A stretch of DNA of 64,000 nt, from positions 2,480,001 through 2,544,000 of the forward strand of contig NZ_CP061800.1 of assembly GCF_017377395.1 (NCBI RefSeq), read 5' to 3'. Origin of the DNA: Desulfonema magnum. Lineage in GTDB: Bacteria; Desulfobacterota; Desulfobacteria; Desulfobacterales; 4be13. Positions 10,503-54,740 of the stretch are shown in pieces; the first letter of the stretch is position 1, and each line of letters opens with the position of its first letter. The notes beneath the pieces were generated by a model that searched no databases, had not been told where the DNA came from, and was given only the letters and a program-made list of their open reading frames with translations. The translations under genes and the position numbers were made by a program.

Positions 10503-12422
10503 ATGTTATCGGAAATATTTTCCCATCCCCTGAGATATCGGGAGCATCCCCTGGCTTACCGTCTGCTTTTTTATATTCTGCTATTCAGTTCCTTTTTTAC
10601 GATTCTGGACACTGCGTTTCAATTATATTTGGATTACCGGAATGATGTGGGCATTATTGAAGAAAGGTTGGAGGAGATCGGGGCCAGTCATGTTCCGGGC
10701 CTTTCAAACAGTTTGTGGCATTATGATGATCAGCTTACCGAAGCTCAGTTGAACGGGATATTGCGGTTGCCGGATATACAATATTTGGAAATACGGACGG
10801 AACAGGGCGAGCCGCTGACCACAATTGGGAAGGCGCATAAAAAAAACGATGTGATCTCTCATCAGTTTCCGCTAGTATATAAAAAGAAAAATATCCCCCG
10901 GATTGGCACGTTATATGTTGCCGCTACTTTAGAAGGGGTGTATCAGCGTCTGCATGGGAAAATATTGGTGATTTTGGGAACCCAGGCTGTTAAAACTTTT
11001 CTCGTATCCGCGTTTATCATTTTTATTTTTCAATATCTTATTGCGCGCCATCTGAAAACTGTTGCCCGATATTCCCAGCAGATTGATTTCAATCATTTGG
11101 ATCATTCTCTGACCTTAAATCGTCCTCATTCCCACGGCTCTTATCCGGATGAACTTGACCAAGTCGTCAATGCAGTCAATAAAATGCGGGTAAATCTGAT
11201 TCGGGATATTGCCGCACGTAAGCACGCCGAAAATGAACTCCGACAAGTAAAAAATTATCTCAATAATATCATCAATTCAATGCCTTCTGTTCTGGTGGGA
11301 ACGGATCAGGAAAAATGTGTGATGTACTGGAACTTTGAAGCGGAAAAAATTACCGGCATATCTGCGAAGGAGGCCAGGGGACAGAGAATGGAAAACTTCT
11401 TCCCTCAGCTAAAAGAACATATAGAAAAAATAAACAGCGCCATGATATCAAAGACTCCCCAGAAAGCCGCCAAAGTGATGACCCGGCTGAACGGAGATAC
11501 CCATTATTTTGATATCATGTTTTATCCCCTGATTGCCAACGGCGTGAAAGGTGTCATACTGAGGATGGATGATGTGACAGAACGGGTCCGCCTTGAAGAG
11601 ATGCTTGTTCAGAGTGAAAAGATGATGTCTGTGGGAGGATTGGCCGCGGGAATGGCGCATGAAATCAACAACCCTCTGGGGGGGATTCTTCAGAGCGCCC
11701 AAAACATCTCACGGCGTATTTCTTCCGAACTTCCCAAAAATATGGAGGTTGCCCGGGAATGCGGGACTGATCTCAGGACAATTCAGGCTTACATGGAACA
11801 GAGGGGAATCATAAAATTCCTGGATGGTATCAGAACATCCGGCAAAAGAGCGGCAAATATCATTAATGATATGCTGCGATTCAGCCGGCCGGGTGAATCT
11901 CGTCTGATACAGGTCCGTCTGGCAGAACTTCTTGACAAAACTGTGTCGCTCGCGGCCCATGACTATGACCTGAAAAAAAAATACGATTTTCGGCACATCA
12001 GGATTGTCCGGGAATTCGAGCCTGATTTGCCGGAAATTTTCTGTGTGCCCACGGAGATTGAGCAGGTTATCCTTAATTTGCTCAGGAACGCGGCTCAGGC
12101 AATGACAGATAAAAAAGATAACACCACCCTACCATGTATCATCTTGCGTCTTTATCAGGACGGTGATATGATTTGTATTGAAGTGGAAGATAACGGCCCG
12201 GGAATGGATGAAAAAAACTGCAAACGCGCGTTTGAGCCTTTTTTCACCACAAAAACAGTGGGAATAGGTACTGGTCTGGGGCTTTCAGTTTCCTATTTTA
12301 TCATTAACAATAACCATAAAGGCACGATGACCGCAGAATCGCTACAGGGCAAGGGGACAAAAATTATTATCCGTCTGCCCATTTACAGAGGAGAGAATCC
12401 CAATGGTAACGAATATCACTGA
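10503..12422 (+). CDS. Membrane sensor histidine kinase with PAS domain
   Basis: 639 residues, not a hybrid. TM1 is at about 20-42 (LLFYILLFSSFFTILDTAF). A periplasmic domain at about 43-158 has the NSLWHYDDQLTE segment typical of sensor domains in this kinase class. TM2 is at about 160-182 and a linker or HAMP-like helix reaches about 240. PAS spans about 250-360 (IINSMPSVLVGTD). HisKA has LAAGMAHEINNPLGG with His386, and the HATPase is at about 510-632 (NLLRNAAQAM, EDNGPGMD, GTGLGLSVSYFI). GAGGTG stands just upstream of the ATG. Its end overlaps the start of the next gene by 20 bp, so the REC-containing protein at 12403 is its likely partner. Confidence 0.92.
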   Translation: MLSEIFSHPLRYREHPLAYRLLFYILLFSSFFTILDTAFQLYLDYRNDVGIIEERLEEIGASHVPGLSNSLWHYDDQLTEAQLNGILRLPDIQYLEIRTEQGEPLTTIGKAHKKNDVISHQFPLVYKKKNIPRIGTLYVAATLEGVYQRLHGKILVILGTQAVKTFLVSAFIIFIFQYLIARHLKTVARYSQQIDFNHLDHSLTLNRPHSHGSYPDELDQVVNAVNKMRVNLIRDIAARKHAENELRQVKNYLNNIINSMPSVLVGTDQEKCVMYWNFEAEKITGISAKEARGQRMENFFPQLKEHIEKINSAMISKTPQKAAKVMTRLNGDTHYFDIMFYPLIANGVKGVILRMDDVTERVRLEEMLVQSEKMMSVGGLAAGMAHEINNPLGGILQSAQNISRRISSELPKNMEVARECGTDLRTIQAYMEQRGIIKFLDGIRTSGKRAANIINDMLRFSRPGESRLIQVRLAELLDKTVSLAAHDYDLKKKYDFRHIRIVREFEPDLPEIFCVPTEIEQVILNLLRNAAQAMTDKKDNTTLPCIILRLYQDGDMICIEVEDNGPGMDEKNCKRAFEPFFTTKTVGIGTGLGLSVSYFIINNNHKGTMTAESLQGKGTKIIIRLPIYRGENPNGNEYH

Positions 12423-14094
12423 ACCCGGCGTAACCGCCCTGATCATTGATGACGAGCCTCTTGTACGTGAAAGTATTGCCGCTTATCTGGAAGACAGCGG
12501 TTTTATTACGCTTGAAGCAGAGGATGGCCGCGCGGGGCTGGAAGTGTTCCGCCGGGAACGACCTGATATCATACTGGTAGATTTGCGTATGCCAAAGGTG
12601 GACGGTCTGGATGTTCTGGCTGCTATGAGTAAAGAATCCCCGGAGACGCCCGTAATTATGGTTTCCGGAACAGGTGTGCTGACAGACGCTATTGAGGCTT
12701 TGCGACTGGGAGCCTGGGATTATGTACTCAAGCCGATACAAGACATGGCCGTATTGGAACACGCTGTCTGTAAAGCCCTGGAACGAGCCAGGCTGCTGGT
12801 GGAGAACCGGAAATATCGTGAACATCTGGAGAGGGAAATCAGAAACAGGACCGCGGAACTTGAGGAGCGTAAGTGCGCTCTGGAGATAGCAAATGAAAAA
12901 TTAAAAAAAGAGATGGCTGAACACAAGCAGACCGAAGCCCAGCTCCGCCAGTCTCAGAAGATGGAAGCCATCGGAACACTGGCAGGAGGAATCGCCCATG
13001 ATTTCAATAATATCCTTTTTCCTATAATGGGTTATACTGAAATGGCCTTAAAAAATCTGCCTGAAGACAGCCCTGTCCGAAGCAATCTCAAAGGTGTTCT
13101 CAAGGCCGCACATCGTGCCAAAGATCTGGTCCGTCAGATTCTGGCGTTCGGCCGTCATAGTGATATGAAACAGAGACGTCTGAATATCCAATCCATCATT
13201 AAAGAGGCATTAAAGCTGCTCAGGGCCACTTTGCCGACAACCATTGAGATGCGTCAGCACATAGATAATGAGTGCGGCCCCGTGTTCGCCAGCCCTACAC
13301 AGATCCATCAGGTAATAATGAACCTCTGTGCCAATGCGTATCATGCCATGCGTGAAAAAGGCGGTGTGCTGGAAGTGACGCTGAATGAGACCCATCTGCC
13401 ATCTCGTGAAAACATCACATTGCTTCCGGGTATGGCCCCGGGTCTGTATCTGAAACTTTCTGTAAGCGATACAGGTCATGGTATGACAAGTGAAATCATG
13501 GAAAAAATTTTTGATCCGTATTTTACCACCAAAGACACCGGAGAGGGGACCGGACTGGGGCTTTCTGTGATACACGGAATCGTCAGAAATCATAACGGCC
13601 ACATCACTGTTGAGAGTGAATGCGGCAAAGGATCAAGATTTCACATTTATCTGCCTGTGGCTACGGGCAAACCGGTCGCGTCAAGTCTCATATCCGACGA
13701 AGCCCGGGTTCCCACAGGCACTGAAAATATCCTTCTGGTTGATGATGAAGAACAGATCATTGATGTGGAAAAGCAGATACTCGAGGAATTAGGCTATCAT
13801 GTTACAAGCCTGACCAGCAGTGCGGAGACGCTGGAGCTTTTTCGCAACCATCCGGAACGTTTTGATCTTGTGGTCACGGATATGACCATGCCGGATATGA
13901 CCGGGGTGGAGCTGTCGGATGAACTTATGCGTATCCGTCCGGATATACCGATAATTCTTTGTAGCGGATTCAGTGAACGAATTACAGAGGAAAGCGTCAA
14001 AGCTATGGGGATTCGGGAGTATATGATGAAACCTCTGCTTAAAAGCGAAATTGCCAGGACAATTCGGCGGGCTCTGGACAGAGGAAAGAACTGA
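12403..14094 (+). CDS. Cytoplasmic hybrid kinase, REC-HisKA-HATPase-REC
   Basis: 563 residues. The N-terminal receiver spans about 8-125 (ALIIDDEPLVRES, ILVDLRMPKVDG, MVSGTG, YVLKPIQD). A long coiled coil at about 130-185 leads to HisKA with GGIAHDFNNIL and His199, then the HATPase at about 305-420 (NLCANAYHAM, DTGHGM, GTGLGLSVIHGIV). A second receiver spans about 440-555 (NILLVDDEEQ, VVTDMTMPDMTG, MMKPLLKS). It begins inside the previous kinase gene (20-bp overlap) and ends 3 bp before the next one, so this is a tight operon. The N-terminal receiver is probably phosphorylated by the membrane kinase just upstream. Confidence 0.92.
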   Translation: MVTNITEPGVTALIIDDEPLVRESIAAYLEDSGFITLEAEDGRAGLEVFRRERPDIILVDLRMPKVDGLDVLAAMSKESPETPVIMVSGTGVLTDAIEALRLGAWDYVLKPIQDMAVLEHAVCKALERARLLVENRKYREHLEREIRNRTAELEERKCALEIANEKLKKEMAEHKQTEAQLRQSQKMEAIGTLAGGIAHDFNNILFPIMGYTEMALKNLPEDSPVRSNLKGVLKAAHRAKDLVRQILAFGRHSDMKQRRLNIQSIIKEALKLLRATLPTTIEMRQHIDNECGPVFASPTQIHQVIMNLCANAYHAMREKGGVLEVTLNETHLPSRENITLLPGMAPGLYLKLSVSDTGHGMTSEIMEKIFDPYFTTKDTGEGTGLGLSVIHGIVRNHNGHITVESECGKGSRFHIYLPVATGKPVASSLISDEARVPTGTENILLVDDEEQIIDVEKQILEELGYHVTSLTSSAETLELFRNHPERFDLVVTDMTMPDMTGVELSDELMRIRPDIPIILCSGFSERITEESVKAMGIREYMMKPLLKSEIARTIRRALDRGKN

Positions 14095-22599: not shown

Positions 22600-25500
22600 A
22601 TGTTAAAAAAATTTAAGAATTTGAGTCTGGTGAAAAAGATTGTTTTTGGTTTTTCAGGAATACTGATGCTGCTATTTACAGTGGGGCTGATTGCTTATAA
22701 CGCCCTGAACAAAGCATCAGACGGTTTTATAAATTATCGGGAAATGGCGCGTGACACCGCGCTGATTGGCAATCTTCAGGTAAATATGCTCATGACACGT
22801 TTTCAGGCAAAGAATTACATTCTTTCAGGAAGTGAAAACAGTCTCAAGGAATATGAAGCTTATTACAGTAATATGGAAAACGTACTGGAAAAAGCAAACA
22901 AAGAGATTCAGGCTCCTGAGCGTGTGGCGAAAATCAGCGCAGTGAATATCGCTTATACAACGTATCATTCAGCATTTCAAAAAATCATTCAATTAAAAAA
23001 TGAACGCAACAAGAATGTCAATGAAATACTCAATGTCAGGGGGCCTCTGATGGAACGCACACTGACAGAAATTATGATTTCAGCCTCTGAAGATGGGGAT
23101 GTGAATATATCATACCATACAGGTCTGGCCATAAAGCATTTGCTTCTGGGACGGCTTTATATGGCAAAGTTCCTTGATACAAACGACCCAAAAACCGCGG
23201 AAAGAGTTCATGCGGAATTTGCCAGGATGGAGGAACAACTGAGTATTCTGGATAAGGAAATAGAAAAATCAGAGTGGCGTAAGAAGTTAGACACCGTGGC
23301 CCGGGCAAAGGACGATTACACGCGGAGTTTCGGTGATCTGTCGAAAATAATTAATGATCGGAATAAGATTATCACAGAGACCCTGGACCGCATCGGACCG
23401 AACATTACCCAAACTATTGATGAGGTCAGGCTTTCTATCAAAGCTGTTCAGGACGAACTCGGTCCCGGACTCGTGGCATCCGACAACAAAAGTATCACCC
23501 TTATCAGTGTCATCGCTGTCATTGCCCTGTCCGCAGGCATCGTTCTTGCCATGCTGATTGTGATACCTGTCAAAAAAGGGATTGCCAGAGCCATGGAGGT
23601 CACAAAAGCGGTGGCTGAGGGCGATCTGGGCATTGATATTCAGATAAACACCAAGGATGAAATCGGCAACCTCCTGGGCAATATGAAAAACATGGTGGAA
23701 ATATTAGGTCACAGGGCCGGAATTGTCGAACAGATTGCCAACGGTACCCTGGACGAAAAAATAAACATTCTTTCGGACAAGGATATCTTTGGTCAGTCTC
23801 TTATCCTGATGATACAGAGGCTTCATGAGATTATCGGTGAAATAAGGTCTGTGACGGATGGTGTTCAGGAAGGCAGACTGGATATCCGTGCGAATATAGA
23901 ATCCTTTACCGGCGGCTGGCATGAACTTATCGCCGGTGTAAATAACCTGACAGATGCCTTTGTGGCCCCGATTAATCTGACAGCAAAGTATATTGAACGG
24001 ATATCCAAAGGAGACATCCCGGAAAAAATCAGCGATGAATACAAAGGAGACTTCAACGATATTAAGAATAATCTGAACCAATGTATTGACGCTGTGAGCG
24101 AGCAGGCGACCGCTGCCCAGCGCATTGCTGACGGGGATCTGTCTGTGCAGATTAACATTCGCTCCGAGAACGATGTGCTGGCAAAAAGTATGCGTAATGT
24201 TAAGGATATCTTACTACTGCTACAGCAGGAACTGATCCGGCTGACCCGGACATCCAAACAGGGCGAGCTTTCTGTGCGCGGAAACCCGGCGCAGTTCCGG
24301 GGCGCATATGCAGATGTCGTAAGCGGTATTAATGAGATGCTTGACGCCATTCTTCTGCCCATTACCGAAGGCAACCGGGTTCTGGCGCATATTTCCGAAG
24401 GCAAGATTGACGAAGTGATCACCGAAACTTACAAGGGGGATCACGAAAAAATGAAGCAGGCTGTGAACAATGTCGCGGCTGTGCTCCAAGGTCTGCAACA
24501 AGAACTGGTCCGGCTGACCCAGGCATCCAAACAGGGCGAGCTTTCTGTGCGCGGAAATCCGGCGCAGTTCCGGGGCGCATATGCAGATGTCGTAAGCGGT
24601 ATTAATGAGATGCTTGACGCCATTCTTCTGCCCATTACCGAAGGCAACCGGGTGCTTCGTCTGATCCGAGGCGGAAATCTGCGGGAAAAGGTGGAAATTG
24701 ACTGCAAAGGCGATCATGAGGAGATGAAGAAAGCAGTGAACGGAGTCCATGAATGGCTGACGGAACTCATCGGATATGTCACGAAAATTGCCAACGGAGA
24801 TATGACCGCTGCAATGGCAAAGGCTTCGGAAGATGACCAGATCCATGAATGGCTGATGCTGATGAAGGATAACATTCAGTCGCTCGTGACTGAGGCGGAT
24901 ATGCTTGCCAAAAATGCGGTGGAGGGCAGACTCACTATTCGTGCTGAAGCAGAAAAGCATCGGGGGGAATATGCAAAAATCATCGAAGGGGTGAACAGAA
25001 TTATTGACTCCCTTATGGGTCATCTGGATGCCATGCCGGCCCCCTCATTTATTATTGATCGGGAATTTAACATTCTCTATATCAACAACGCGGGAGCAAA
25101 ATTGGTGGGAGTTGCACAAGACATGCTCATCGGAAGCAAATGTTACAATCACTTCAGAACCTCTGACTGCCGGACCGAAAAATGCGCCACAGGCCGATGT
25201 ATGGAACAAAACTGTGAAATCAGCTCTGAAACACAGTCCTACGCGGGGGATAGGTGCATTGATATTTCATACACAGGTGTTCCGATAAAAAATGCAGAGA
25301 ACAAAATCATCGGGGGCCTTGAAATTATTATGGATCAGACAGCCATAAAACAGGCGGCCCGCCTTGCTCAGAAGCAAGCTGATTATCAGAAAACTGAGGT
25401 TGGAAAACTCATCGCCAATCTGAGCAAGCTGGCATCCGGAGATTTGAATATTGATATTGAGGAAGCTGCCACAGATGAGGACACCCGTGTCATCGGAGAA

Positions 25501-26880
25501 AATTTCAAAAAGATCGGACAGGCATTGAAAGAAACCGTGATAGCGGTCGGGAACCTGGTGAACGACACAAATATGCTGGCTCAGGCCGCGACCGAGGGAA
25601 AGCTCGACACAAGGGCGGACATATCCCGGCATAAGGGAGATTTTTCAAAAGTGGTGGAAGGTGTCAACAACACCCTTGATGCCCTGACCGCGCCCATGAA
25701 AGTTGCCGCGGACTATGTGGACAGAATCAGCAGCGGTGATATTCCGAATAAGATCACTGAGGAATACAAGGGAGATTTCAATGAAATCAAGAAAAATCTG
25801 AATCTGCTTATTCATGTGACAAATGAAGTGACAGACATTGCCGGAGAAATTGCCAAAGGAAATCTGAGAGTAACGGTCGGAAAACGCTCGGAACAGGACG
25901 AACTCATGGCAGCGATGCAAAAGATGGTCCGGGACCTGACCGAAATCGCTATAAATGTCCAGAAAGCCGCCGGAGAGGTCGCCTCGGGCAGCCAGGAGAT
26001 CAGCGCGGGCGCTCAGACGATTTCCCAGGGCGCGGCAGAACAGTCTTCGAGTGTTGAAGAAATATCCGGATCCATGGAGGAAATAAACAGCACCGTGTCA
26101 CAGACAGCAGATAATACAAAAGAAACGGCTGTTATCGCTGAAAAATCCGCGGCTGACGCGTCTGAGGGAGGCAAAGCAGTTGCTGAGACTGTCCGGGCAA
26201 TGAAGACCATTGCGGAGAAAATCAGCATCATTGAGGAAATTGCCCGCCAGACCGATCTGCTGGCCCTGAACGCGGCCATTGAGGCAGCCAGGGCAGGTGA
26301 ACATGGGAGGGGATTCGCAGTGGTGGCAGCGGAAGTTCGCAAACTATCGGTGCGAAGCCAGACCGCTGCACAGGAGATCGGAGAACTCTCAGGTGTCAGT
26401 GTGGAGATTGCCGAAAAAGCAGGCAGGCTGATTGGTGATATTGTGCCGAGTATACGAAAGACTTCCGAACTCATAAGGGAAATCAACGCATCAAGCACGG
26501 AGCAGGCCACTGGAATTGAGCAGATCACCAAAGCCATCATACAGCTTGATCAGATCATCGGTCAAAATGCTTCCGCGACTGAAGAAATGGCCTCAATCAG
26601 TGAGGAACTCTCTGGGCAGGCTCATCGTCTGCGGGAAATGGCGGCATTCTTCAAAACAGAAGACCGGAAAACTCAGCATTTCTCCCGGAACCAGTCATCT
26701 CAGATTTCTCAGCCAGTTGCGAAGAGAGGCAGGGAGACATCTTCACATAAAGCAATGGCCCGGGACAGAATAACAGCGAATTCGGTTACTAATGGCTATG
26801 CTGATTACAAAAAGAAACGCGGGAAGAGTCTCGACTTAGATATTGATAAATCTGATGACAGTGAGTTCGAGGCGTATTGA
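22600..26880 (+). CDS. Poly-HAMP methyl-accepting chemotaxis protein with PAS domain
   Basis: 1426 residues. TM1 is at about 10-32, a four-helix periplasmic domain follows to about 295, and TM2 is at about 300-323. HAMP and HAMP-like modules run from about 323 to 800, each with an EGDLGIDI- or KGDIPEKI-type turn. Two of these modules are a 91-residue near-identical duplication. A PAS domain lies at about 803-910, with a cysteine-rich loop [20 protein letters not shown]. More HAMP-like modules follow to about 1100. The signalling hairpin includes [20 protein letters not shown] and [13 protein letters not shown]. After a flexible 70-residue linker the last five residues, EFEAY, fit the CheR-docking pattern (aromatic-x-x-aromatic). 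The ribosome site is good (AAGGAG). It likely signals with the CheW at 32.0 kb and is modified by the CheR and CheD proteins of the 1-8 kb cluster. Confidence 0.92.
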
Positions 26881-26924: not shown

Positions 26925-27001
26925 TCCCCTTCGACAAGCTCAGGGAGCGGGTAAATGGAAGCTACTCGTTGAGCCTGTCGAAACGCCTCCCCCCTTCGAC
27001 C
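26925..27001. repeat. Inverted repeat with TTCGACAAGCTCAGG-type words
   Basis: CCCCTTCGACAAGCTCAGGG and CGTTGAGCCTGTCGAAACG are inverted and separated by about 25 bp. A related pair is at 47323-47371 (TTTTGACAAGCTCAACGAG and CCTGAGCCTGTCAAAGG). It is a dispersed intergenic palindrome. Confidence 0.6.
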
Positions 27002-27041
27002 AATGCTGTTGAGTTAAGGCTGAACAGGTTCATCAGTGTTC

Positions 27042-29775
27042 TCTCCGAAGTGCGAAAAATGCTTTTTCGCATGCGCAAAAATAGAATTTTTGCACTCCGG
27101 ACCCGTTCGGAACTGCCTTATCCGGAGTGCGAAAAATGCTTTTTCGCATGCGCAAAAATAGAATTTTTGCACTCCGGCCCCGTTCGGAACTGCCTTATCC
27201 GAAGTGCGAAAAATGCTTTTTCGCATGCGCAAAAATAGAATTTTTGCACTCCGGCCCCGTTCGGGACTGCCTTATCCGGAGTGCGAAAAATGCTTTTTCG
27301 CATGCGCAAAAATAGAATTTTTGCACTCCGGCCCCGTTCGGGACTGCCTTATCCGGAGTGCGAAAAATGCTTTTTCGCATGCGCAAAAATAGAATTTTTG
27401 CACTCCGGCCCCGTTCGGAACTGGCTTATCCGGAGTGCGAAAAATGCTTTTTCGCATGCGCAAAAATAGAATTTTTGCACTCCGGATCCGTTCGGAACTG
27501 CCTTATCCGGAGTGCGAAAAATGCTTTTTCGCATGCGCAAAAATAGAATTTTTGCACTCCGGACCCGTTCGGAACTGCCTTATCCGGAGTGCGGAAAATG
27601 CTTTTTCGCATGCGCAAAAATAGAATTTTTGCACTCCGGCCCCGTTCGGGACTGCCTTATCCGAAGTGCGAAAAATGCTTTTTCGCATGCGCAAAAATAG
27701 AATTTTTGCACTCCGGCCCCGTTCGGAACTGGCTTATCCGGAGTGCGAAAAATGCTTTTTCGCATGCGCAAAAATAGAATTTTTGCACTCCGGCCCCGTT
27801 CGGAACTGCCTTATCCGGAGTGCGAAAAATGCTTTTTCGCATGCGCAAAAATAGAATTTTTGCACTCCGGATCCGTTCGGAACTGCCTTATCCGGAGTGC
27901 GAAAAATGCTTTTTCGCATGCGCAAAAATAGAATTTTTGCACTCCGGATCCGTTCGGAACTGGCTTATCCGGAGTGCGGAAAATGCTTTTTCGCATGCGC
28001 AAAAATAGAATTTTTGCACTCCGGATCCGTTCGGAACTGCCTTATCCGGAGTGCGGAAAATGCTTTTTCGCATGCGCAAAAATAGAATTTTTGCACTCCG
28101 GATCCGTTCGGGACTGCCTTATCCGGAGTGCGGAAAATGCTTTTTCGCATGCGCAAAAATAGAATTTTTGCACTCCGGATCCGTTCGGAACTGCCTTATC
28201 CGGAGTGCGAAAAATGCTTTTTCGCATGCGCAAAAATAGAATTTTTGCACTCCGGATCCGTTCGGAACTGCCTTATCCGGAGTGCGAAAAATGCTTTTTC
28301 GCATGCGCAAAAATAGAATTTTTGCACTCCGGATCCGTTCGGAACTGCCTTATCCGGAGTGCGAAAAATGCTTTTTCGCAGGCGCAAAAATAGAATTTTT
28401 GCACTCCGGATCCGTTCGGAACTGCCTTATCCGGAGTGCGAAAAATGCTTTTTCGCATGCGCAAAAATAGAATTTTTGCACTCCGGCCCCGTTCGGAACT
28501 GCCTTATCCGGAGTGCGGAAAATGCTTTTTCGCATGCGCAAAAATAGAATTTTTGCACTCCGGCCCCGTTCGGAACTGCCTTATCCGGAGTGCGAAAAAT
28601 GCTTTTTCGCATGCGCAAAAATAGAATTTTTGCACTCCGGATCCGTTCGGGACTGGCTTATCCGGAGTGCGGAAAATGCTTTTTCGCATGCGCAAAAATA
28701 GAATTTTTGCACTCCGGATCCGTTCGGAACTGCCTTATCCGGAGTGCGGAAAATGCTTTTTCGCATGCGCAAAAATAGAATTTTTGCACTCCGGCCCCGT
28801 TCGGAACTGGCTTATCCGGAGTGCGAAAAATGCTTTTTCGCATGCGCAAAAATAGAATTTTTGCACTCCGGATCCGTTCGGAACTGCCTTATCCGGAGTG
28901 CGGAAAATGCTTTTTCGCAGGCGCAAAAATAGAATTTTTGCACTCCGGATCCGTTCGGAACTGCCTTATCCGGAGTGCGAAAAATGCTTTTTCGCATGCG
29001 CAAAAATAGAATTTTTGCACTCCGGATCCGTTCGGAACTGCCTTATCCGGAGTGCGAAAAATGCTTTTTCGCATGCGCAAAAATAGAATTTTTGCACTCC
29101 GGATCCGTTCGGGACTGCCTTATCCGGAGTGCGGAAAATGCTTTTTCGCATGCGCAAAAATAGAATTTTTGCACTCCGGATCCGTTCGGAACTGCCTTAT
29201 CCGGAGTGCGGAAAATGCTTTTTCGCATGCGCAAAAATAGAATTTTTGCACTCCGGCCCCGTTCGGAACTGCCTTATCCGGAGTGCGAAAAATGCTTTTT
29301 CGCATGCGCAAAAATAGAATTTTTGCACTCCGGATCCGTTCGGAACTGCCTTATCCGGAGTGCGAAAAATGCTTTTTCGCATGCGCAAAAATAGAATTTT
29401 TGCACTCCGGATCCGTTCGGAACTGCCTTATCCGGAGTGCGGAAAATGCTTTTTCGCATGCGCAAAAATAGAATTTTTGCACTCCGGCCCCGTTCGGAAC
29501 TGCCTTATCCGGAGTGCGAAAAATGCTTTTTCGCATGCGCAAAAATAGAATTTTTGCACTCCGGATCCGTTCGGAACTGCCTTATCCGGAGTGCGGAAAA
29601 TGCTTTTTCGCATGCGCAAAAATAGAATTTTTGCACTCCGGCCCCGTTCGGGACTGCCTTATCCGGAGTGCGAAAAATGCTTTTTCGCATGCGCAAAAAT
29701 AGAATTTTTGCACTCCGGCCCCGTTCGGAACTGCCTTATCCGGAGTGCGAAAAATGCTTTTTCGCAGGCGCACCT
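27042..29775. repeat. Tandem array, 36 units of exactly 77 bp
   Basis: Units begin (GTGCGAAAAATG or GTGCGGAAAATG) at 27050 and then every 77 bp to 29745 without a single indel. Each unit holds one large palindrome of about 56 bp, from CCGGAGTGCGAAAAATGC through the central GCATGC to ATTTTTGCACTCCGG. A 21-bp linker follows (ATCCGTTCGGAACTGCCTTA or variants). Units differ at only a few positions: GATCC, CCCC or ACCC; GGAACTG or GGGACTG; CTGCC or CTGGC; GCGAAA or GCGGAA; GCATGC or GCAGGC. The array lies between the 3' ends of convergent genes. The staggered 62-63 residue frames on both strands arise from the period and are not genes. It is not a CRISPR: the linkers are the same. Confidence 0.97.
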
Positions 29776-29787
29776 CCGGGATTGAAA

Positions 29788-30987
29788 TTATTCCAAAAGA
29801 TTTGAAATAAAACAGCCTCCTCCGTCCCCGCCATCATCTGATGCCGCATCTTTTGCAGGATTAATTTTAACTGTCACTGATGCTGTGTTTGAATCAGCCT
29901 TCCCGTCACTTGCTTTATAAATGAAATTATCGCTGACAGCATTACCGCCGTCATGCGAATAAGTAAATGAGCCATCAGCGTTTAAGGTCAGACTTCCGTG
30001 AGAAACATCGTTAATCAGAAATGCTGTAAGCGTATCACTATCCGCATCTGTGTCGTTTCCGAGTATCCCGGGAGCATTTTCGCTGATTTCATCACCTTGG
30101 CTGACCGTGTAAATATCATCAAAAGCCTCTGGTGTGTCATTGGATTTGGGAACATAGGTATAAATAAAATCAAGAAACGCTGTTATTCGGGTATAAACCC
30201 CGTAAAAATCCGGTTGTGCGCAACCCTCGCCCCAACTCACGATTCCCGCCAGCTTCCAAGTATCTCCGTCCGGCACAACAAGAGGCCCCCCGCTGTCATT
30301 TCGGCAGGCGTCTGTTCCGCCCTCACTGCGACCCGCACACATCATATACTCAGTAATGGGATCATCATAATACAGCTTCTGATTGTAGCTTTTATTGCAG
30401 ATGTCATTGGAAATAATGCAAACTGATGCCTGACGGAGCTTTTCAGGAAAGATATCATTACGCGCCGAAGTCGTTCCCCACCCGATAACAGCAGCTTCCT
30501 TTCCATCGAGAACCGCATTGCCCGCCACCGGCCGTATTGTCGGATAAGAGACAGTTTCTTCCAATTCCAAAAGGGCAATATCCGCATTCCAGTTATTTTT
30601 CTTGTCATAACACGGATGGGAAATGATTCTTTTCACTTTTATCCATTCTCCGATGTCATTTTTAAGATCATGGACGCCCAGCACCACTTCAATATCCTCA
30701 GGCTCCAAAGCGTCCCCATGGATATCCTCTGCACAATGCGCTGCCGTGACAACCCAGTTGGAATGGACAAGCGACCCCGCGCACATCAGACTATCATAAA
30801 GCGATCCCTTGTCAGGATAAACCAACGCGGTTATCCACGGCCAGGCTCCTTGTTCCGATTCATAACCACCGACGATCCTTGAAGATGCTTTTCGGGACGC
30901 GTCCTGTTTTACACTTTTATTCATATCCGCATAGCCCGATCCTGTGGCTAAAAACATCAAAAATACAATAAAATAAAGCTGTTTCAT
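29788..30987 (-). CDS. Secreted trypsin-like serine protease with C-terminal Ig/cadherin-like domain
   Basis: 399 residues. A signal peptide (KQLYFIVFLMFLATGSGYA) is followed by a short propeptide and the activation site RIVGGYESEQGAWPW. The triad is complete: WVVTAAHC (His), NADIALLELE (Asp) and CRNDSGGPLV (Ser). GIVSWGEGCAQPDFYGVYTR completes the S1 fold, ending near 270. Residues about 285-380 form a cadherin- or Ig-like repeat (EAFDDIYTVSQGD, NADGSFTYSHDGGN, ASDGKADSNTASVTV). The tail GGDGGGCFISNLLE is a glycine run plus cysteine, resembling C-terminal sorting or anchoring tags. It is exported and probably cell-surface attached. It faces the 77-bp array. Confidence 0.9.
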   Translation of the reverse strand: MKQLYFIVFLMFLATGSGYADMNKSVKQDASRKASSRIVGGYESEQGAWPWITALVYPDKGSLYDSLMCAGSLVHSNWVVTAAHCAEDIHGDALEPEDIEVVLGVHDLKNDIGEWIKVKRIISHPCYDKKNNWNADIALLELEETVSYPTIRPVAGNAVLDGKEAAVIGWGTTSARNDIFPEKLRQASVCIISNDICNKSYNQKLYYDDPITEYMMCAGRSEGGTDACRNDSGGPLVVPDGDTWKLAGIVSWGEGCAQPDFYGVYTRITAFLDFIYTYVPKSNDTPEAFDDIYTVSQGDEISENAPGILGNDTDADSDTLTAFLINDVSHGSLTLNADGSFTYSHDGGNAVSDNFIYKASDGKADSNTASVTVKINPAKDAASDDGGDGGGCFISNLLE

Positions 30988-48789: not shown

Positions 48790-49200
48790 GATCGAAAAAT
48801 TTTTCCGGAGCGCAAAAACAGAGCGAAGCGGTTTTTTTGCCGTTGATCGAAAAACTTTTCCGGAGCGCAAAAACAGAGCGAAGCGGTTTTTTGCTGTTGA
48901 TCGAAAAACTTTTCCGGAGCGCAAAAACAGAGCGAAACGGTTTTTTGCTGTTGATCGAAAAACTTTTCCGGAGCGCAAAAACAGAGCGAAACGGTTTTTT
49001 GCTGTTGATCGAAAAACTTTTCCGGAGTGCAAAAACAGAGCGAAACGGTTTTTTGCTGTTGATCGAAAAACTTTTCCGGAGCGCAAAAACAGAGCGAAGC
49101 GGTTTTTTGCTGTTGATCGAAAAACTTTTCCGGAGTGCAAAAACAGAGCGAAGCGGTTTTTTGCTGTTGATCGAAAAACTTTTCCGGAGCGCAAAAAAGT
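48790..49200. repeat. Array of 54-bp repeats (eight units)
   Basis: Units begin GATCGAAAAA at 48790, 48845, 48899, 48953, 49007, 49061, 49115 and 49169. The first is 55 bp, the others 54 bp and the last is cut. Each has CTTTTCCGGAGCGCAAAAAC and a hairpin GCAAAAACAGAGCGAAGCGG with TTTTTTGC. A closing palindrome (GGAGTGCAAAAATAGAGCG, GCACTTTTTTGCGCTCC on the minus strand) reaches to about 49232. The period is a multiple of three, so long artefact frames run through both strands. Confidence 0.93.
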
Positions 49201-49257
49201 GCTTCGCTCTATTTTTGCACTCCTTTTTTTCTCTAAAACTTTTCCGGTTCCTGATAT

Positions 49258-53250: not shown

Positions 53251-53570
53251 GGAGGGACGGGCCGAAAATAGCCCGGCCCTCTTATAAAATAAGATATTGC
53301 CGGGGTTCGGATACACACAATTTTTTCAGTCCCGCAGGGACGGTCCGAAGCCATGCAGTTTTTCGGTGGTCCCCACGGGACTCGGCTAATTTTGTCTGCT
53401 CCGTCCCCCGGCAATGAATTGCCGGGCTATTCTTATTCGTCCCTCCGGGACTGAACCTATGCCCCATCTGTGCGCCGCAGTTCCAAGTAATGAATCCGAA
53501 TCTTCACGCAATTTTTTCATGAAACCGGATTTTTCCAAAAAATCCGGTTTCTTTTTGGGCTGTTTTGTGG
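53251..53570. repeat. 320-bp direct repeat, left copy
   Basis: From CCCGGAGGGACG to GGCTGTTTTGTGG. It includes TATTGCCGGGGTTCGGATAC, CCGAAGCCATGCAGTTTTTC, the palindromic CCCCGGCAATGAATTGCCGG and the GAAACCGGATTTTTCC / AATCCGGTTTC hairpin. The right copy lies at 54418-54740; the HEPN gene pair lies between them. Confidence 0.88.
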
Positions 53571-54417: not shown

Positions 54418-54740
54418 CCCGGAGGGACGAATGAGAATAGCCCGGCCCTCTTATAAAATCAGATATTGCCGGGGTTCGGATACACACAATTTTTTCAGTC
54501 CCGCAGGGACGGTCCGAAGCCATGCAGTTTTTCGGTGGTCCCCACGGGACTCGGCTAATTTTGTCTGCTCCGTCCCCCGGCAATGAATTGCCGGGCTATT
54601 CTTATTCGTCCCTCCGGGACTGAACCTATGCCCCATCTGTGCGCCGCAGTTCCAAGTAATGAATCCGAATCTTCACGCAATTTTTTCATGAAACCGGATT
54701 TTTCCAAAAATTTCGATTTCTTCTTTGGCTGTTTTGTGAT
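54418..54740. repeat. 320-bp direct repeat, right copy
   Basis: It matches 53251-53570 almost base for base through CCGAAGCCATGCAGTTTTTC, CCCCGGCAATGAATTGCCGG and ATGAATCCGAATCTTCACGC. It differs mainly in the last 50 bases (AAAAATTTCGATTTC instead of AAAAAATCCGGTTTC). A further AAACCGGATTTTTTC / AAAATCCGGTTTC hairpin stands just before it at 54363-54394. Confidence 0.88.

Follow-up and report, generated by a model that had tools for sequence, protein, structure and literature searches.

A 77-bp tandem repeat lies between two convergent genes

Bacterial genomes are thought to hold few, short repeats. Nevertheless, the window analysed here (a whole stretch of 64,000 nucleotides of the Desulfonema magnum genome) contains a long tandem array placed between a chemoreceptor gene and a protease gene, and this raises the question of what such an array is, how it could have grown and whether it serves the cell in any way. 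The answer which we consider likely is that it is a satellite grown from a mobile element, namely a REP doublet carried in an IS4-type MITE that was tandemly amplified, and that it has no dedicated function.

The array occupies positions 27044-29772 and is described by TRF as having a period of 77, 35.4 copies, 97% matches and 0% indels. The original prediction spoke of 36 units in perfect register. The register is indeed kept without indels, but in-register reading yields 35 complete 77-bp units and a 36th of which only 34 nt are present. The predicted location of the array between convergent chemoreceptor and protease genes agrees with both the domains and the strands of its neighbors:

22600-26880, + strand: chemoreceptor gene (HAMP_2 x4, HAMP, PAS, MCPsignal; domain search), left of the array
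27044-29738, + strand: 35 complete 77-bp units (TRF and in-register reading)
29739-29772, + strand: 36th unit, truncated after 34 nt, with the GCAGGCGC spacer that is common in single MITEs; the MITE right end is missing (in-register reading and array comparison)
29788-30987, - strand: trypsin-like serine protease with an Ig/cadherin-like domain, right of the array

A coding repeat was considered and rejected, as 77 cannot be divided by 3 and the array is not spanned by any listed ORF. A scan with Rfam 15 found no RNA family above the gathering score in the array. Elsewhere in the window, the Acido-Lenti-1 RNA (Rfam RF01687) is matched at 53407-53452 and 54576-54621 (49.5 bits each), i.e. about 1.2 kb apart on one strand.

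Units of the array differ at seven shuffled sites

Seven columns of the 77-bp unit are variable (unit positions 5, 12, 29, 58, 59, 68 and 73), and the mean pairwise divergence among units is 3.0%. About five shuffled sites had been expected; the shuffling stands, whereas the number of sites has to be raised to seven. All four combinations are present in 13 of the 21 variable-site pairs, and the longest recurring block of variant types comprises 2 units (P=0.99 in comparison to shuffled order). Higher-order duplication of blocks of units was considered too, and no evidence of it was obtained, as recurring blocks are no longer than in shuffled orders. The absence of long recurring blocks, together with the four-combination pairs, suggests that variants were mixed by short exchanges and not by large-block duplication. 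The unequal exchange or gene conversion proposed in the original prediction fits such shuffled variants.

It could be argued that the copy number was inflated or collapsed during assembly, since arrays in perfect register are difficult for assemblers and our assessment was made from the assembly alone. Such an artefact seems extremely improbable to us, though, because the seven sites allow the units to be told apart and recurring blocks never exceed 2 units, unlike in a duplicated stretch; moreover, the assembly consists of one 8.03-Mb contig in which many other arrays of the family are present. The copy number of the array, as read from this one genome assembly, may be variable.

The unit is an inverted pair of hairpins

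The 77-bp unit consists of a 58-bp core, 17 nt of what proved to be the right arm of a MITE (see below) and TA. The core reads TCCGGAG-TGCGAAAAATGCTTTTTCGCA-TGC-GCAAAAATAGAATTTTTGC-A-CTCCGGA. In the first unit, its parts are as follows:

27044-27071, + strand: left REP, TCC-GGAG-hairpin TGCGAAAAATGCTTTTTCGCA; the tag reads GAAG, not GGAG, in this first unit
27075-27101, - strand: right REP, inverted, hairpin GCAAAAATAGAATTTTTGC and then CTCC; its stem is that of the REP flanking the RAYT gene at 7646454
27102-27120, + strand: linker of the CCGTTCGGAACTGCCTTA type, made up of 17 nt from the right arm of the MITE followed by TA, with the duplication joint at the linker end (from comparison with single copies)

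The unit was initially described as one large palindrome of about 56 bp. This description had to be abandoned, as the core matches its own reverse complement at just 42 of 58 positions and two hairpins are found instead. As single-stranded DNA, the core folds into two adjacent hairpins on a common CTCCGGA clamp (z=-5.1); RNA parameters favor a single long interrupted stem for the unit (z=-4.4). Perfect stems of at least 7 bp (7-9 bp) occur in both half-hairpins of 29 among the 39 distinct cores, and cross-pairing between core halves is mostly 60-77% in these 39. In a related core from another genome, GTGTGAAAA...TTTTCACAC replaces GTGCGAAAA...TTTTCGCAC, which means that both sides of the half-hairpin are altered. 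The unit is an inverted pair of GGAG-tagged hairpins, arranged as in a REP doublet (REPIN/BIME module). The GGAG located 5' of the hairpins is constant; its AG half agrees with the canonical GTAG, while its first half differs. Marinomonas Mb is the only family cited for tolerance to changes in the first two tag positions.

The hairpin pair is carried by a MITE with IS4-type ends

Dispersed copies of the core lie within an element of constant length (133 bp, or 122 bp in a subfamily), bounded by the terminal inverted repeat CAATRCTGYTGACTTA. Exact target duplications of 10-11 bp were found in 16 of 31 copies of this element, some of them being units of one array, a count which cannot be extended to the window copy because its right end is gone. 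Being short, non-coding, constant in length, equipped with terminal inverted repeats and target duplications, and sharing its ends with an autonomous element elsewhere, the element is a MITE. By their sequence, these ends are of the IS4 type: in another genome of the order, identical 18-nt ends enclose an element of 1552 bp that encodes an IS4-family transposase of 413 aa. An autonomous IS4-type partner with the ends of the MITE was not found in its own genome. Two other Desulfobacterales genomes contain MITE families with identical IS4-type ends and unrelated interiors, several of them with visible target duplications.

At the window locus, the left end of the MITE is kept from position 27001, the array takes up the remainder, the last unit is cut at 29772 and the right end is lost:

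27001-27043, + strand: MITE left arm, i.e. TIR CAATGCTGTTGAGTTA (27001-27016) and the sub-terminal arm (TIR match; the arm is common to dozens of dispersed copies)

Another dispersed inverted repeat, of the TTCGACAAGCTCAGGG...CCTGTCGAA type, adjoins the MITE end at 26928-26999, and tandem arrays of it are likewise present in other parts of the genome.

Other copies of the core expanded independently

The 77-bp unit has 212 matches in the genome. According to the original prediction, finding the unit scattered singly, with no array in relatives, would speak against it. Half of this picture was found: the unit does occur singly at dozens of places, yet its own genome contains several other arrays. 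These are independent expansions of other core copies, with periods of 23, 25, 36, 46, 66, 74, 92, 92, 143, 144 and 161 bp, and each of them has its own joint. Some repeat the whole MITE plus the target duplication (144 = 133 + 11), and others repeat part of the core. The proposed selection on a length of 77 bp through helical phasing is not supported, as the same core is expanded elsewhere at periods of 66, 74, 92, 144 bp and others. As other copies expanded with other periods and joints, the period of 77 bp simply reflects where the first duplication happened to join, i.e. a breakpoint accident. The arrays of the family appear to have each arisen separately from one mobile seed. Two further arrays are present in the window:

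2183-2608, + strand: second array of the element, comprising half-REP units of 25 bp, two full cores and the MITE right TIR at 2593-2608
48790-49223, + strand: third array, built of 54-bp units whose REP (CCGGAGCGCAAAAACAGAGCGAAGCGGTTTTTTGC) is related and resembles the one surrounding the RAYT gene at 5626978

In 20 stretches spread evenly over the genome (384 kb in all), a census of tandem arrays with a period of at least 20 and no fewer than 2.5 copies gave 33, a few of which are likely coding repeats; this corresponds to 8.6 arrays per 100 kb and 3.7% of bases. Two relatives had 2 arrays in 200 kb (1.0 per 100 kb) and 0 in 200 kb, and the density here is thus about 9 times that of one relative, with none sampled in the other. 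The GGAG tag is present in only 7 of the 33 sampled arrays, the others differing in sequence and some having no strong hairpin, which argues that tandem growth belongs to the genome and not to the GGAG REP alone.

Several other repeats deserve mention. The array at 433-436 kb (432439-436194; 144-bp spacing) is interrupted by an insertion sequence, and an insertion sequence also lies inside a tandem array of 166-bp spacing at 6464884-6468477; tandem arrays may be preferred or tolerated targets for such elements. The stretch at 7530000-7545000 contains MITE-derived units over about 5 kb, spaced at 96 and 126 bp, inverted in orientation and broken by other sequence. An 84-bp repeat of 30.8 copies near 5.01 Mb (10607-13196 of the local stretch) is probably a repetitive coding region, 84 being a multiple of 3.

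The exact core 27-mer had no match outside its own genome in a scan of GTDB genomes, among which the own genome may be missing. The single right-hand REP was found in 45 stretches of GTDB genomes, all from Desulfobacterales assemblies, and by exact sequence the REP family appears to occur only in this order.

The REP family of the unit surrounds three RAYT genes

There are eight Y1_Tnp matches in the genome, and three of the weaker loci (5626978, 7565659 and 7646454) lie inside arrays with the tag and hairpin of the unit. These three loci have 16, 36 and 36 GGAG-hairpin tags per 3.2 kb, in comparison to a background of 0.38 per 3 kb (49 tags in an unbiased sample of 384 kb) and to no more than 12 in any one of 401 sampled windows. 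Their proteins score 99.3, 88.5 and 101.2 bits with NF047646 (REP-associated tyrosine transposase), for which the NCBIfam cut-off is 80, and all three retain the HYH motif. When one of them was compared with PDB sequences, the sole match was TnpA_REP 4ER8 (6.8e-13). Tyrosine 115 of 4ER8 would correspond to the tyrosine of VNYLL, and the three proteins share VNY, VTY or ANY. With these features, the three are predicted Y1 transposases of the RAYT (TnpA_REP) class, and at each of the three loci the putative RAYT gene is delimited by the REP family of the window unit. The REP beside the third gene (7646454), TCCGGAGTGCAAAAATTTTATTTTTGCA, differs from the right hairpin of the window unit in a single loop base; no exact copy of the left hairpin was seen at the RAYT loci. 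As the Y1 transposase loci of relatives are not flanked by the GGAG REP, the association of RAYT and REP is one found in this genome.

None of the four top-scoring Y1 genes has the GGAG REP; beside two of the four, another hairpin is present instead. Two Y1 genes (7716610-7719951 and 6513786-6517127) are flanked by a different hairpin, CCCGGCAATGAATTGCCGGG, with a spacing of 69-70 bp, and together with this hairpin they constitute a second RAYT/REP system in the genome.

Maintenance of the array for a function is improbable

One may suppose that the array is kept because it is useful, be it to block transcription between convergent genes, to bind gyrase or some other protein, or to supply hairpin RNA. 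On one hand, its position between convergent genes is in line with this idea, and the unit folds strongly both as RNA and as DNA (z-scores given above). In addition, there are reports of DNA gyrase binding to BIMEs and of REPs aiding Rho-dependent termination (PMC2817692). On the other hand, convergent gaps are not preferred by the element, as they hold 4 of its 32 placed intergenic sites versus 66 of 433 large gaps overall (gene calls being crude longest-ORF ones, with 15 of 48 clusters inside short doubtful ORFs). No intrinsic terminator (a GC-rich hairpin followed by a T run) was found in the array, while shuffles of the region average 6.7. The transcription barrier suggested by the original prediction thus loses its ground. 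Arbitrary periods and sizes of the sister arrays and the lack of an Rfam match also speak against a cellular role, which we consider quite improbable. Gyrase binding or Rho-dependent termination might, by analogy with BIMEs, be side effects of the array.

A probable mobile-element origin of the array

The satellite could have arisen as follows, by a route through mobile elements that the original prediction did not contain. A REP doublet of the kind processed by RAYT/TnpA_REP would have become the center of a 133-bp MITE with IS4-family ends, one copy of which came to lie in the gap that separates the chemoreceptor gene from the protease gene. Next, the middle of the right arm might have been connected to the core start by a tandem duplication involving little or no homology at the joint; this would have given the 77-bp unit, which recombination or replication slippage at hairpin DNA may have expanded to about 35 units. 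Short-patch gene conversion would have kept the units similar to each other while shuffling their variants, and a deletion presumably took away the right end of the MITE. The nature of the core, the build of the MITE, its left end at this locus, the separate expansions at other sites and the association of RAYT with REP are direct observations. We infer this order of events, as well as an amplification by recombination or slippage rather than by RAYT and the view that the array does nothing dedicated in the cell apart from possible side effects of its hairpin DNA. Several points count against such an origin: the tag is GGAG, not GTAG; the left hairpin was not seen in exact form at a RAYT gene; the link between RAYT and REP is not seen in relatives; and an autonomous IS4 partner was not found in the own genome.

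A different engine of amplification is conceivable, in which RAYT itself makes the arrays. The enzyme would nick REP hairpins and circularize the doublet with its flank, and rolling-circle copying would reinsert a head-to-tail concatemer, so that the MITE would be the seed of bacterial satellite DNA; a circle and rolling-circle concatemer model of this sort was proposed for BIMEs (PMC2817692). The location of RAYT genes within the densest arrays and the HYH motif retained in three RAYT proteins are both compatible with this scenario. Also, in a 74-bp array both breakpoints are CT (ACTTTCT/AAG and TTCTCT/CCGG, the slash marking the break), a dinucleotide cut by several TnpA_REP enzymes, and the 77-bp unit departs from the right arm after GCCT. 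However, the tag is limited to the above-mentioned minority of sampled arrays, some of the others have no strong hairpin, and several joints of tagged arrays are not at CT. Untagged arrays and non-CT joints speak against RAYT as the sole cause, and the 144-bp whole-MITE arrays are explained more simply by exchange between target duplications. We therefore find the RAYT-driven scenario doubtful and prefer recombination or slippage acting on an inserted MITE. If RAYT did turn out to be an engine of tandem amplification, a doublet-bearing MITE would seed satellite DNA across the genome. In either case, the arrays offer a natural series of amplification joints on which the BIME rolling-circle model can be compared with slippage and recombination.

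Comparison with known repeat systems

The closest parallel are REP/BIME/REPIN sequences and their RAYT genes in E. coli, Stenotrophomonas and Pseudomonas (PMC2817692, PMC8266576, PMC3733652). They share with our element the tagged short hairpins in inverted pairs, a high copy number, the location of RAYT genes within arrays of the respective REP, and modules arranged head-to-tail with stretches of flank; REP dimers tandemly repeated with flank segments were described already (PMC3733652). They differ in that here the tag is GGAG and not GTAG, the stems are AT-rich, 35 units stand in one array and the doublet is nested in a DDE-type MITE with terminal inverted repeats and target duplications. 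A DDE-type MITE and a RAYT-type REP are thus united in one element.

In BrickBuilt of Porphyromonas gingivalis (PMC4596501), a minisatellite, MITE ends likewise enclose a tandem array of variable length, and the element is intergenic and present at multiple loci. However, it has one 23-nt unit and IS5-type-like TIRs, whereas here the unit is locus-specific, its core is a RAYT/REP hairpin pair and the ends are of the IS4 type. The BOX element of Streptococcus pneumoniae (PMC3049150) is also a modular repeat whose middle module (boxB) is tandem between fixed ends, but the largest BOX has 637 bp and boxB is one fixed module, while the amplified segment described here varies by locus. Compared with IS4-family insertion sequences and their MITEs, our element has the 18-nt terminal repeat of the 1552-bp element of a relative and 11-bp target duplications; unlike them, it has no transposase, and the genome gave no autonomous partner. 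What is new is the combination, found in Desulfobacterales, of a GGAG-tagged REP doublet with an IS4-type MITE and with expansions to tens of copies that occurred repeatedly and independently.
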